Source: Chitinophaga pinensis (GTDB lineage: Bacteria; Bacteroidota; Bacteroidia; UBA4408). From it: 48,549 nt of DNA. How positions within the stretch are numbered: the stretch's first letter is position 1; every line of letters begins with the position of its first letter. The position numbers and the translations under genes are program-made. This document shows positions 43,323 through 48,243 of the stretch, one piece after another. Location: assembly GCA_945872355.1 (NCBI GenBank), contig CAMBZU010000017.1, positions 1 to 48,549 on the forward strand. Direction: 5' to 3'. The notes beneath the pieces were generated by a model. That model was not told where the DNA came from, searched no databases, and saw only the letters and a list, made by a program, of their open reading frames with translations.

Positions 43323-43351
43323 TTGAGCTTCAAATTTGAACTCAATTTTTT
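43323..43351 (+). terminator. Possible terminator of the six-gene operon
   Basis: Hairpin TTGAG-c-TTCA / TGAA-CTCAA followed by six T, 22 bp after the DUF1653 stop. AT-rich and with one bulged base, so moderate strength. Its T run overlaps the 3' end of the convergent T9SS gene. Confidence 0.5.
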
Positions 43352-44886
43352 ATAAACTTCTGCGGAATGTTTCCATTTAAAGCATTTGTACGAATAAAGT
43401 AAATGCCCGCATTTAAATTGGAAACATCAATTTTTTGAATTGTATTTAATGCGCTTTTTTCCTCCAACACAAGCTTTCCAGTAATATCAGTAACTTGAAT
43501 CACAGCGCAGCTTTTTAGGTTGATGTTGTGTGTTACATAAATAAAATCATCAGCGGGTGAAGGGTAAATTTTAAAGCTTTCGGAGAAGTCATTTTCAGTT
43601 AAAGCATTCACAGTACTTTGGTAAAAATTTTGAACAACATCAGCCGCAATGCCTAATTCAGGCAAACCATTTGTGCTGCTGCCTCTGGCATAAATATAGG
43701 CTACATCAATAGTAATATAACCGTTAGGTGCAATTGTAAAAGGACCTGCACTTGCAATTATGCGATAATCGATGGGCGTTGTTGCTACCCAGTTTTGTGT
43801 AAAATTGGGATCGGTAACACCGCTAAAGCAAAAATTGGTATTTCCCAAACCAGTTTGATAACCGTCTAATCCAAAATTAAGTGGCGTATCATCTTTCCAA
43901 ACCGACCTTAAATAATTATAGTAATGATTTGCACTGCTTGGATTATTTCCATAAAAAGAAGCACCTGCGTTATTATAAAACATCGCATTATGCAATGGTT
44001 GATTTAATATTTTCATCCCAATTGCTGGTGGATTCAAACCGTATATTGCATCACTGTCAGTGGCGTTATATCCATAAACCATATTTCTATTGATATCAGT
44101 GCCAATAAAATCATCAACATAGTCGCCAATTTCAAAGTCATTCCAAATGCCAACATAAAAATTGCTATAGGTATTTAATTGCGATCTATTTCTTATTCTA
44201 TGCCTAACAAAAACTGTATGGTCAATAATATTACTACCGGTTGAATTATAAGCATATACAGTGCTATAAACTTCTGCTTCTATAGGTATTGCACCACTTT
44301 CGCCATGTGCAGCGTATTTATCATTATACATTACATAGATGGCCTCATCTCCTAAAACATTGGGATAATCTCCATAAGCAGGGTCATAAATGCCATTGTT
44401 ATTTATATCTACAAAAGGGGCAAAAATTTGACTTACGCCATTAAAAGAACTTCCCGGCCAATCGATAATATCTTGTGGTAACTGGTAGCCTTGTGTGTTA
44501 TAATTTGCAATATGGTTGTTAATTGCACTGCGGTCAATATGCCAAATTTTATTCCAAGTGCTTGGTGGTAATGTTACGCCATTGCTGGTTAATGGGGCCG
44601 GCCAATAATCTGTTCCACTTTGTTTATAGGTTTGTGCAGCTAAGTGTAAAATGCCATTTTGATCTAAACCTCCCATCCAAAGATTAGAGGCATAAATACA
44701 ATTTTTACCCGAAAATTTGGGCACTTCAAAATGCGCATTGGTGTTAATATTATTAAATAAAAAACCATCGGCTTCTATTGGCGCACTAATATTATTTGGA
44801 TCAATATTTTGAACTTCCCACTGTGCTTTGGCAATAAAACATTGAAATAAAAAGGCACTATAAATTAAGGTAATTGTAGTTTTCAT
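43342..44886 (-). CDS. T9SS-exported protein, last gene of an ECF sigma operon
   Basis: 514 aa, function unknown. Signal peptide about 1-21 (ending IAKAQ). The body has many aromatic and Asn residues with repeated Asp-rich turns such as FVDINNNGIYDPAYGDYPN and FIGTDINRNMVYGYN, resembling calcium-binding loops. A type-A sorting domain closes it (about 440-514; IYPSPADDFIYV, VTDITGKLVLEEKS, LNAGIYFIRTN, QKFIKN). It starts three bases after the stop of the trans-envelope protein, so it is almost certainly cotranscribed with that and the sigma gene and may be the exported output or ligand of the system. Confidence 0.88.
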   Translation of the reverse strand: MKTTITLIYSAFLFQCFIAKAQWEVQNIDPNNISAPIEADGFLFNNINTNAHFEVPKFSGKNCIYASNLWMGGLDQNGILHLAAQTYKQSGTDYWPAPLTSNGVTLPPSTWNKIWHIDRSAINNHIANYNTQGYQLPQDIIDWPGSSFNGVSQIFAPFVDINNNGIYDPAYGDYPNVLGDEAIYVMYNDKYAAHGESGAIPIEAEVYSTVYAYNSTGSNIIDHTVFVRHRIRNRSQLNTYSNFYVGIWNDFEIGDYVDDFIGTDINRNMVYGYNATDSDAIYGLNPPAIGMKILNQPLHNAMFYNNAGASFYGNNPSSANHYYNYLRSVWKDDTPLNFGLDGYQTGLGNTNFCFSGVTDPNFTQNWVATTPIDYRIIASAGPFTIAPNGYITIDVAYIYARGSSTNGLPELGIAADVVQNFYQSTVNALTENDFSESFKIYPSPADDFIYVTHNINLKSCAVIQVTDITGKLVLEEKSALNTIQKIDVSNLNAGIYFIRTNALNGNIPQKFIKN

Positions 44887-44889
44887 TGC

Positions 44890-46512
44890 TTATAATTTTA
44901 GTCTAAGGCCTATATTTAAACCATAGGTAAATAACTTTTGTTGCACAGGATAATCAGCATTTGTAATTGATTTTAGAATATAGCTGCTGTGTGGTTCTAT
45001 TAATAAATCAAGTTTATCATTCAATCTGTAATTTGTTGAAATGCCAGCCGACAAACTCAAACCTGCGCGCTTTTTAAATGGATTTTGATTGTTATTACTT
45101 ACATCATTTGCAGCATAATTATAATTGGCAACTGTGCCTTTTTGCTTAAATAATAAATTGTAAATCACACCAGCTTGCAGCGCAATACCGCTGCGTTTGC
45201 CCAGCCACTTGTAACCAATCATGGCAGGAATAGCTATAAAAGTCATGCGCACATCATGCGTAATGGTATCTTTATGTGTTGTAACATAATCAAGGGTATC
45301 GTAAGTTTTATAAATAATATTTCCTTCAAAAGGATCAATGTATGTTACAAACTTTGTCGAGTCTATATAGTCTTCATGGCTTTGCCATTTATAGGCTATA
45401 GAGAACTTTTCTTGGCGTTGAGAAAAACTAATACCTGTATGAATAAAAATATTTTTAGTTACAAATAAATTAATCCGCATTAGCGCGCTATAAGCCAAAC
45501 GCAAACTTTCAGCACTATCTCTTCTTGAAATGTAATTTAGAGCTTGTTCATTTGTTCCTTTTAAGCGCCTCCCGGCAAATTCAGGAGATAGAAGCGCATC
45601 AAAAGCAATATAACCTTTAAATTTCTTTTGGCCATAAACAGTGTCAAAAGCGATAGGTGTTGCTTCACTATTCATAGCAGTTGCTTCAATGGATGCTGCG
45701 CTTTGCCCTGTATTTTCTTGCGTTGTATTATTCTTTTGATTACTATTTTCAACTTTTACAATGTTATTTTCAATTTGCTTGTCGCTTTCTTTTTGTGCTT
45801 TGGCCAAAGCTTTTTGTTCAGCTTTTAAAACTTTTTTCGATTTAGATAATACAAGAGTTGCAGTTAAAAATACAGGGTTTTCCATGCGATCATTAATTTG
45901 AATGTCATTATTTAAATCAAATAAAATGGCATTTACATCATGTGGCTTAATGCTTGCAAAGGCAAACAATGGTTTTTCTGTTGCTTTGTTTGTTGTATTT
46001 TCATGAATGGGGTAGATAGTTCCATTGTTTTCTTCGGCCCTTGTTTTTGTTGTTACAGCTGTATTTACTTTAGTTTCTGCAACAGCTGATTTTAATGCAA
46101 AAATGCTTGCTTGTTTTTGTTTAGCAAAACTATTTGCTGAGTTAATTATCGCATCATTATTTATTTTTTGATTCTTTTTTATTTCATTATTTTTAGTTTG
46201 CTTTAGCGCTTCATCATCATTAACAGCAATCTTTTTATAAGGTGTTTCAACATGCTTGTTTTTAAAAATAGCATGCAATTGATGAGCAGCTTGAACTTCA
46301 TTTTTTTTCAACATGCTAAATGCTGTAAGGCCACAAAAAATAAAAATATCTAATGCTATAAATAAATTAAAGCAATGTTTGAACCATATAAAAACTTCGC
46401 GCTTTTTGCGTTTCTTTTCTATACCAGCCCAAACCGAATCACTTACCTCTATGGTATGATCTTCTAATTTAGATCTTAGAAATTCTTCAAAATTATTTTC
46501 TCCGTTATTCAT
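44890..46512 (-). CDS. Dual-membrane-spanning anti-sigma-like protein with C-terminal outer-membrane beta-barrel
   Basis: 540 aa. Residues 1-45 are cytoplasmic and highly charged (EEFLRSKLEDHTIEVSDSVWAGIEKKRKKR). Residues about 46-68 are a membrane helix (HCFNLFIALDIFIFCGLTAFSML). About 70-300 is a Lys/Asn/Ala/Gln-rich, probably disordered periplasmic stretch. About 305-540 is a beta-barrel (FKGYIAFDALLSPEF, LMRINLFVTKNIFIHTGISFSQR, GIALQAGVIYNLL, ending YGLNIGLRLKL). The gene overlaps the sigma-factor gene by eight bases. This layout matches the dual membrane-spanning anti-sigma factors (Dma) described in Bacteroides thetaiotaomicron. Sequence relationship to those is unverified; sigma binding is inferred. 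Confidence 0.8.
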   Translation of the reverse strand: MNNGENNFEEFLRSKLEDHTIEVSDSVWAGIEKKRKKREVFIWFKHCFNLFIALDIFIFCGLTAFSMLKKNEVQAAHQLHAIFKNKHVETPYKKIAVNDDEALKQTKNNEIKKNQKINNDAIINSANSFAKQKQASIFALKSAVAETKVNTAVTTKTRAEENNGTIYPIHENTTNKATEKPLFAFASIKPHDVNAILFDLNNDIQINDRMENPVFLTATLVLSKSKKVLKAEQKALAKAQKESDKQIENNIVKVENSNQKNNTTQENTGQSAASIEATAMNSEATPIAFDTVYGQKKFKGYIAFDALLSPEFAGRRLKGTNEQALNYISRRDSAESLRLAYSALMRINLFVTKNIFIHTGISFSQRQEKFSIAYKWQSHEDYIDSTKFVTYIDPFEGNIIYKTYDTLDYVTTHKDTITHDVRMTFIAIPAMIGYKWLGKRSGIALQAGVIYNLLFKQKGTVANYNYAANDVSNNNQNPFKKRAGLSLSAGISTNYRLNDKLDLLIEPHSSYILKSITNADYPVQQKLFTYGLNIGLRLKL

Positions 46513-47050
46513 GGGTAACTTTCATTATTTGCTTACTAATAAATTTTTCTTTTAATGCATTTCTTGCTTTTAAAAACTGTGTTCTCGAAGTGCTTTCAGT
46601 AATATTTAGCATTTCTGCAATTTCCTTGTGGCTATATCCTTCAATAGCAAACAAGTTAAAAACAACACGGTAACCTTTTGGTAAAGTGCTAATCATTTCA
46701 ACTATTTCTTGCGCCCCTATTTTAGCTAACACACTTGGCGCAACTTGCGAATGATTTTGATGATGATCATTGGTGTCAGAAAATTTCAATTGCTTTACCC
46801 TTAAGGCCGATAAAGCCGTATTCACAAATATTCTGCGCATCCAACCTTCAAAAGAACCTTCGTTTCTAAAATGAATGATATTTGCAAAAATCTTTATAAA
46901 ACCTTCTTGTAAAACATCTTCAGCCTCGGCCTTGTCATTGATATAACGCATGCATACCGACAGCATTTTTCCTGCATAGGTATCATACAGCAGCTTTTGG
47001 CTTGCTGCCTGTTGTTTTTGACAATTGTATATTATTTCAGCCTCAGTCAT
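46505..47050 (-). CDS. ECF RNA polymerase sigma factor
   Basis: 181 aa. Region sigma-2 (about 14-85): LLYDTYAGKMLSVCMRYINDKAEAEDVLQEGFIKIF, with the typical helical core. Region sigma-4 (about 115-170): STLPKGYRVVFNLFAIEGYSHKEIAEMLNITESTSRTQFLKARNALK, the helix-turn-helix that reads the -35 element. It is the first gene of a three-gene unit with an anti-sigma-like trans-envelope protein and a T9SS cargo. The promoter upstream is unclear; autoregulation is typical of such systems but not shown here. Confidence 0.95.
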   Translation of the reverse strand: MTEAEIIYNCQKQQAASQKLLYDTYAGKMLSVCMRYINDKAEAEDVLQEGFIKIFANIIHFRNEGSFEGWMRRIFVNTALSALRVKQLKFSDTNDHHQNHSQVAPSVLAKIGAQEIVEMISTLPKGYRVVFNLFAIEGYSHKEIAEMLNITESTSRTQFLKARNALKEKFISKQIMKVTHE

Positions 47051-47271
47051 TAATTACATCGCCATAGTAATTGCTCATTCATTAGCTTAAAGATACCAAA
47101 AAGATAATTAATGTTGCCTGCAATTTATTTTTTTTGCCATCCTTAATTTATTCACAATGGTAAAACCATGCAAGCTAATGCCTATTGAGATGTTTTAACT
47201 CAATAAAAAGCAATCAAAATAGGCAATGAAATTAATTTTAACTGAAGCTGAAAACAAAAACAAAAACAAAA

Positions 47272-48243
47272 TCAATGCGCAGCGAGTTCATTTTCCTGCA
47301 TTTTTGCGAGGTAACTTTCTAGCTCAAAAAGTGAAGCAATGGCCACTTGTGAATAGTTTTGCGAACAGTTCTGAAAACCACCAGCATTGGTATTCCATAA
47401 TTGCATAATCATGGCCATATTGCCTACTTCGGGTTGCATTACATTTAGCGCTTTAGCCACATTTCCAGCGCCAGCGTGGTATACGTGCAATACAAGCAGT
47501 CTGTACCACAAATCAGTTTCACAATAAGCAATATTGTATTTTTCTAAAATTCTGTTGGTATAGGGCACACAAATGCTCGAAATAAGTTTGCAGGCAGCCA
47601 CAGCGCTTTTTTCTAAATTGCCTCTTTCATCAACTTTTCCATTAATTTTTAAACCATATTTTAAACCAACACTTTTCATTAATTGAAAAGGACCATAAGC
47701 ACCAACCGTTGATTTAGCCAATTTACCCGGGCTTTCAATCAATAAAATAGCTTGAGCATAAAAAGGATCAACGCCTTGTTTTTTAAAAATCACATTGCTT
47801 TTTTCAATATCAGAAACTACGCTACTTACATTGTAAAAATGGTTGCGCCCCATGGCATACATCACGCGCTTATCGCAAGTAAATCCTTGGCTAACTCTTA
47901 AACTATCTTTAAAATTATCTTTTTGTATATCGCTGTATTGCTCATAAGTTGAGGCAGGCAGCGTGCCAAGTATAACTTTTTCAGGCGAAGCATAAAATAC
48001 AAAAGTGTCTTTCGAGGTGTTCATCAGTTTTCTCCAAAAAATTGTTCTGGCAACCGTATCAAGTCTTTCAGCTTGTAATTCGTGGCAATAAACAAAACTG
48101 CTATTGCGCCTTACATCCTTCAGCTTAGCCTCATTATTAATGGCTTTTTCAGATGTATTGATGTTGCTACTGCCGTTAAACAAAAACAAAGTGAAAGTAA
48201 ATAAACAGGTAATTTTTATAAACTGAAATATATTGCGCAACAT
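47272..48243 (-). CDS. Lytic-transglycosylase-like SLT-domain protein
   Basis: 323 aa. Membrane/secretion signal at about 8-24 (FIKITCLFTFTLFLFNG). A first domain of unclear relation (about 50-125) is followed by an SLT/lysozyme-like domain (about 150-290). The likely catalytic Glu is E170 in AILLIESPGK, followed by the VGAYGPFQLM motif (usual form VGLMQLM). Then comes a region with HVYHAGAGNVAKALN matching the end of the fold. It would cleave peptidoglycan between MurNAc and GlcNAc. The motif differs from classical SLT, so activity needs proof. A -7 box lies just upstream of its ATG. Confidence 0.75.
   Translation of the reverse strand: MLRNIFQFIKITCLFTFTLFLFNGSSNINTSEKAINNEAKLKDVRRNSSFVYCHELQAERLDTVARTIFWRKLMNTSKDTFVFYASPEKVILGTLPASTYEQYSDIQKDNFKDSLRVSQGFTCDKRVMYAMGRNHFYNVSSVVSDIEKSNVIFKKQGVDPFYAQAILLIESPGKLAKSTVGAYGPFQLMKSVGLKYGLKINGKVDERGNLEKSAVAACKLISSICVPYTNRILEKYNIAYCETDLWYRLLVLHVYHAGAGNVAKALNVMQPEVGNMAMIMQLWNTNAGGFQNCSQNYSQVAIASLFELESYLAKMQENELAAH

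Follow-up and report, generated by a model that had tools for sequence, protein, structure and literature searches.

A predicted Dma-like trans-envelope anti-sigma factor encoded with a conserved type IX secretion cargo family in Chitinophaga pinensis

Described trans-envelope regulators and the Chitinophaga locus

In Bacteroides thetaiotaomicron, the anti-sigma factors Dma1 and Dma2 are encoded next to the extracytoplasmic function (ECF) sigma factors Das1 and Das2, and a four-part layout has been described for the Dma proteins: a sigma-binding N-terminus, a transmembrane helix, a disordered tether and a C-terminal barrel (PMC13088901). The dma2 operon includes a third gene, BT_1557, and deletion of dma2 raises BT_1557 and das2 (log2 fold 6.0 and 4.5, respectively; PMC13088901). 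The subject of the present analysis is a locus that resembles these systems in architecture and lies in a stretch of 48,549 nucleotides from Chitinophaga pinensis (contig CAMBZU010000017.1; the whole stretch is called the window here). It comprises three open reading frames (ORFs) on the minus strand, which encode an ECF sigma factor of 181 amino acids (aa; 46505-47050), a Dma-like trans-envelope anti-sigma factor of 540 aa (44890-46512) and a predicted type-A cargo of the type IX secretion system (T9SS) of 514 aa (43342-44886).

Related designs are known from other bacteria. EcfO-Reo of Bacteroides fragilis and Phocaeicola vulgatus also combines an ECF sigma factor, an anti-sigma factor that spans to an outer-membrane barrel, and surface-exposed outputs (PMC9308784, PMC13114119); however, it drives surface NigD lipoproteins (PMC13114119) instead of T9SS proteins, and its regulon is larger and extends beyond its own operon. 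In FecA-FecR-FecI-type cell-surface signalling, an outer-membrane barrel likewise acts on an ECF sigma factor through an inner-membrane anti-sigma factor (PMC9249621), but barrel and anti-sigma factor are separate and the barrel is a TonB-dependent receptor, whereas a single polypeptide with an eight-stranded barrel is predicted in the window. PorA of Porphyromonas gingivalis, which bears a C-terminal domain of the T9SS type, is genetically linked to ECF sigma activity and can act upstream of the sigma factor (PMC7712824); this PorA-PorXY-SigP pathway differs in that it operates via a two-component system, lacks a barrel anti-sigma factor and regulates the T9SS machinery.

Beyond PorA, no T9SS cargo partner of an anti-sigma factor was found in the literature searched, the coverage of which excluded subscription journals. 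The trans-envelope wire itself is of a known kind, and the novelty lies in the third gene, which belongs to a conserved family of T9SS cargo. The sequence-only reading, an earlier description of the window, had regarded the cotranscribed T9SS gene as the addition to the Dma scheme, which holds for the conserved cargo family but not for a third gene as such: BT_1557 of B. thetaiotaomicron occupies this place, although it encodes a DUF4943 protein, whereas the third product in the window is a predicted T9SS cargo, the body of which is conserved.

The locus suggests that this bacterium may control one surface protein via a self-contained outside-to-inside wire. Barrel anti-sigma factors are known from gut Bacteroides, and a conserved surface partner from the same operon is a concrete candidate for what such anti-sigma factors sense. 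In addition, a regulon that apparently consists of one operon would provide a clean readout, and ECF signalling would be tied to T9SS outside the PorXY-SigP case.

Architecture and conservation of the three-gene unit

The dense packing of the three leftward genes noticed earlier is borne out by the ORF coordinates: the genes for the sigma factor and the middle protein overlap by 8 bp (46505-46512), and a gap of 3 bp (44887-44889) separates the latter from the T9SS gene. The sigma factor carries the Pfam domains Sigma70_r2 (2e-14) and Sigma70_r4_2 (3.6e-15), and in NCBIfam only the general ECF model, sigma70-ECF (1e-26), exceeds its cut-off. It is 80% identical to its counterpart in the congener G002, and the matches retrieved by sigma similarity include genomes of Tannerellaceae, Dysgonomonas and Parabacteroides.

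The middle protein was modelled with AlphaFold2 as a single chain, using an alignment with 43 relatives. Its first 44 residues (46381-46512, minus strand, as for all parts of this gene) form a predicted cytoplasmic domain that would hold the sigma factor; helices are modelled at residues 7-16, 25-84 and 225-258, the second of which is long. The motif of this domain is F-x(3)-LRxKL...VWxxI, the tryptophan of which (W28) does not vary among 10 sequences and hardly varies among 43, and an N-terminal profile, DMAN, is shared with 117 ORFs that adjoin sigma factors of the same clade. The protein has a single strong hydrophobic window (mean hydropathy 2.24, from residue 50); this stretch, about residues 50-68, sits within helix 25-84 and is directly preceded by KKRKKR, in agreement with an inside-positive inner-membrane helix at about residues 45-67 (46312-46380). 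Residues 68-295 (45628-46311) are predicted to form a disordered periplasmic tether, with per-residue confidence (pLDDT) below 50 at residues 92-226 and 258-295, and their number, 228, agrees with the about 230 low-complexity residues that had been proposed to cross the periplasm.

The C-terminal barrel expected from the sequence is present in the model of the protein alone. The outer-membrane beta-barrel (residues 298-540; 44893-45621) has eight strands within residues 301-539 (301-319, 339-350, 355-380, 409-436, 441-458, 483-496, 501-512 and 523-539), with pLDDT mostly 92-98, and aligns structurally to OmpA, OprF, NspA and OmpW with Z scores of 17-20; Pfam finds OMP_b-brl_2 (PF13568, 3.1e-8) at residues 330-496. 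A comparison with the G002 protein revealed identical residues at 23 of 44 positions of the cytoplasmic part, at 147 of 243 in the barrel and at 53 of 222 aligned positions in the tether, so that the two ends are conserved and the part between them diverges, which fits a tether. The modelled architecture of a cytoplasmic and transmembrane helix, a disordered tether and an eight-stranded C-terminal barrel is thus of the Dma/Reo type, and the earlier assignment to the Dma proteins is supported by the AlphaFold2 model, the barrel alignments and the published four-part description (PMC13088901).

The third protein starts with MKTTITLIYSAFLFQCFIAKAQ, which on inspection is hydrophobic and resembles a signal peptide, and ends with a T9SS sorting domain (Por_Secre_tail, PF18962, 4.5e-14, residues 440-512; TIGR04183, 3.4e-12, above the cut-off), its sole Pfam domain. 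The genome (3.4 Mb) encodes a full-length SprA (2646.8 bits versus a cut-off of 200) and has at least 150 sorting-domain matches; T9SS export to the cell surface is therefore possible, and the high number of matches made it necessary to test for chance adjacency of the third gene. The body of the protein (residues 34-432), in a weak model with a mean pLDDT of 59 built from five sequences, aligns with Z scores of 14-15 to the N-terminal super-beta-sandwich of GH15/65/94/116 enzymes, the catalytic (alpha/alpha)6 part of which is absent from the 514 aa. These scores came solely from a second aligner, and Foldseek yielded a TMq of only 0.2-0.3; as a lead, the model suggests a carbohydrate-related surface beta-sandwich.

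The order of the three genes recurs well beyond the window. Loci were collected via sigma similarity only, with a model built from five sigma factors, four of them in such triads; the frequencies given below are not class-wide rates, and the surveyed loci are related to one another, so that they represent few independent events. For 149 of 153 distinct sigma factors of the clade, the next ORF has the same anti-sigma N-terminus or a barrel, and 89 have the barrel in the same ORF. The family of the third gene, T9B, directly follows the sigma-Dma pair in 17 loci from at least ten genera and five families (the window, L059, L060, L061, L100, L111, L143, L209, L210, L212, L213, L214, L221, L237, L264, L278 and L282). 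The sequence-only reading would have been contradicted had the three genes never been adjacent in homologous loci, and their recurrent adjacency in the 17 loci upholds it on this point. In the sigma-only sample, T9B occupies the second position after the sigma gene in 13 of 140 cases, whereas none of the 456 background genes belongs to it (p 4e-9). When the C-termini of close same-strand genes at this position were searched with Pfam, a T9SS sorting domain was found in 23 of 89 (14 type-A and 9 type-B) versus 4 of 145 in the background (2 and 2), with p 1e-7 if members are taken as non-overlapping. On the sigma tree, the triad label needs about 3-4 changes and falls into five well-separated clusters, and in a tree of the T9B family itself the proteins from triads group together (3 changes versus 13.5 in shuffles).

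Within the genus, the three genes have been gained or lost as a unit. The G002 locus is collinear with the window over the triad and the flanks on either side, and it keeps the 3-bp gap. In G003 the same flanks (the gene for a transglycosylase SLT domain protein on one side; a 75-aa, a MOSC-like and further genes on the other) are joined, the SLT gene lying 245 bp from its neighbour, and the triad is missing; this clean absence between the flanks that enclose it in G002 indicates that the three genes come and go together. The triad is also missing from G001, where the context is rearranged.

Several loci show variations of the arrangement. L172 has T9B one gene later; L136:7995-15506 contains a tandem repeat in which sigma factor, barrel anti-sigma factor and T9SS cargo occur twice; and in L061:5497-10784 a T9B-family protein lies on each side of the pair. 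One genome (L092:6498-9924 of G079, and L219) has a sigma-Dma pair without a T9SS gene and, elsewhere, two adjacent T9B copies that form a sister group to triad copies from related genera. The T9SS gene of L213 and the anti-sigma gene of L105 are each split into two ORFs, by a frameshift or an assembly error. Eight loci (L214, L221, L237, L264, L278, L282, L100 and L143) have an extra same-strand gene after the T9SS gene, of about 500-1500 aa as seen, several being cut by the end of the locus; the products share the start ..ATHMMGGDI/ASHMMGGDI and are probably large adhesins.

Promoter motif, proposed circuit and alternatives

Counting of spaced pairs upstream of 160 sigma genes of the clade, with no prior assumption about the motif, gave GCAAC-17-CATC and close forms. 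GCAAC-N17-NRTC is present in 75 of the 160 upstream regions (shuffle mean 0.66, maximum 3), mostly 30-70 bp before the sigma start codon. The window contains an exact match, GCAACATTAATTATCTTTTTGGTATCT (GCAAC-N17-TATCT; 47091-47117, minus strand), which precedes the start codon of the sigma gene by 41 bp; the corresponding site in G002, GGCAACGAAAATTATCTTTTTAGTATCT, does so by 32 bp. This position is expected if the sigma factor transcribes its own operon. Scans for sigma-70-type promoters and for terminators across the operon gave no excess over shuffles.

Genome-wide, the strict motif has 11 matches in the window genome, nine of which are intragenic, one is 208 bp from a gene start, and one is that at the operon. 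With the GGCAAC form and spacings of 16-18, only the two triad operons of G000 and G002 have a match close to a start, the other G002 match being 283 bp off. As no other match lies close to a start at a promoter position in these two genomes, the predicted regulon is apparently the operon itself, although weaker targets are possible.

Taken together, the locus probably encodes an autoregulated Dma-type circuit with the T9SS-exported surface protein as its dedicated output. The anti-sigma factor would be anchored in both membranes, with its barrel in the outer membrane and its tether across the periplasm, and its N-terminus would keep the ECF sigma factor inactive. Retention by the N-terminal part and release upon signals at the outer membrane are known from the published systems. 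A change at the barrel, either a bound ligand or outer-membrane stress, would free the sigma factor, which would transcribe its own operon from the GCAAC-N17-TATCT promoter and thus raise the levels of sigma factor, anti-sigma factor and T9SS-exported protein. The beta-sandwich cargo on the cell surface would be the dedicated output and plausibly also a surface partner of the barrel. The promoter evidence favours the output role. Several points weigh against this proposal: the motif was seen in 7 of the 17 triad loci in the stretch searched and is missing in 10, a shortfall partly due to ORF starts possibly chosen too far upstream; the regulon estimate leans on the strict motif; most Dma loci of the clade have no T9SS protein, which is thus not needed for the switch; and both the contact between sigma and anti-sigma factor and the export of the cargo are predictions.

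The main alternative, conceivable though rather doubtful, is that the T9SS protein serves chiefly as a ligand to be sensed or as a surface co-receptor, which would dock on the barrel loops and hold or release the sigma factor, so that the circuit would report T9SS export or a glycan bound by the cargo. The fixed one-to-one link between a single cargo family and the sigma-Dma pair in at least ten genera would agree with this role, as would the P. gingivalis precedent, in which PorA acts upstream of PorXY-SigP (PMC7712824), the occurrence of the predicted cargo fold in glycan-active enzymes, and a T9SS type-B domain in 28 of 47 barrel-less anti-sigma factors of the clade, which makes contact between regulator and T9SS recurrent. 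However, the Dma proteins of the clade mostly work without a T9SS protein, the type-B domain and the barrel occur as alternatives and not together, and cotranscription is equally well explained by an output role.

A general outer-membrane stress response, in which the third gene would encode one of many induced envelope proteins and have no signalling role, is unlikely: beyond the operon itself, the strict motif finds no well-placed target in either G000 or G002, and the congeners G001 and G003 lack the triad, which would not be expected of a core stress system. Nevertheless, the architecture is like that of EcfO-Reo, which responds to antibacterial toxins as well as to exposure to oxygen (PMC9308784, PMC13114119). 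The third gene is very unlikely to be a chance neighbour in spite of the high T9SS background of the genome, and chance adjacency was rejected on the basis of the order in 17 loci, the absence of T9B from the 456 background genes and the joint presence or absence of the three genes; the 3-bp gap kept in G002 and the distribution of T9B over five GTDB-type families point in the same direction, and neither the tree nor the identities of 26-35% suggest that the 17 loci stem from one recent transfer.

Related anti-sigma factors and neighbouring genes

The same sigma clade is also associated with anti-sigma factors of other designs. Of 47 barrel-less anti-sigma factors adjoining clade sigma factors that were scanned, 28 carry a CHU_C type-B sorting domain (best E value 1.6e-19); NCBIfam finds the type-B domain in 27, and PKD domains are present in 19. 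Examples are L127:8548-9624, L230, L249, L252, L260, L263 and L285, and behind several of these genes lies an adhesin-like gene (700-1250 aa) that has a CHU_C domain as well. In Algoriphagus-type loci, an anti-sigma factor of 250-280 aa is followed by a separate OMP_b-brl_2 gene. These variants suggest that within one sigma clade the anti-sigma factor is tied to the outer membrane via a fused barrel, a T9SS domain or perhaps a neighbouring barrel, which supports a theme of wiring from the outer membrane to the sigma factor with a recurrent T9SS link; the sister anti-sigma factors with sorting domains suggest a second route to the outer membrane or surface. Tentatively, and with less than even confidence, it may be proposed that T9SS-bearing Bacteroidota connect one ECF sigma lineage to the cell surface via T9SS products, either by a barrel anti-sigma factor with a dedicated cargo, as in the window, or by an anti-sigma factor that ends in a type-B domain; the regulator would thereby read T9SS export or the bound partner of the cargo.

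In L109, L114, L131, L134, L139, L142, L149 and L163, a separate gene comes after a short anti-sigma factor (about 235-280 aa); in L109 the separate gene has OMP_b-brl_2, an arrangement that may be a split form of the Dma fusion.

In the window, the SLT gene (47272-48243) lies on the same strand 221 bp upstream of the sigma gene, and the genes downstream of the operon are in convergent orientation. The window genome has two further sigma/anti-sigma pairs, L079:1662-6262 (C5) and L084:3085-8867 (C35), at which the promoter motif is absent. Both are located beside T9SS-cargo genes with PKD domains, the neighbours being a protein of 715 aa upstream, and a 401-aa PKD protein and an 897-aa sorting-domain protein downstream.

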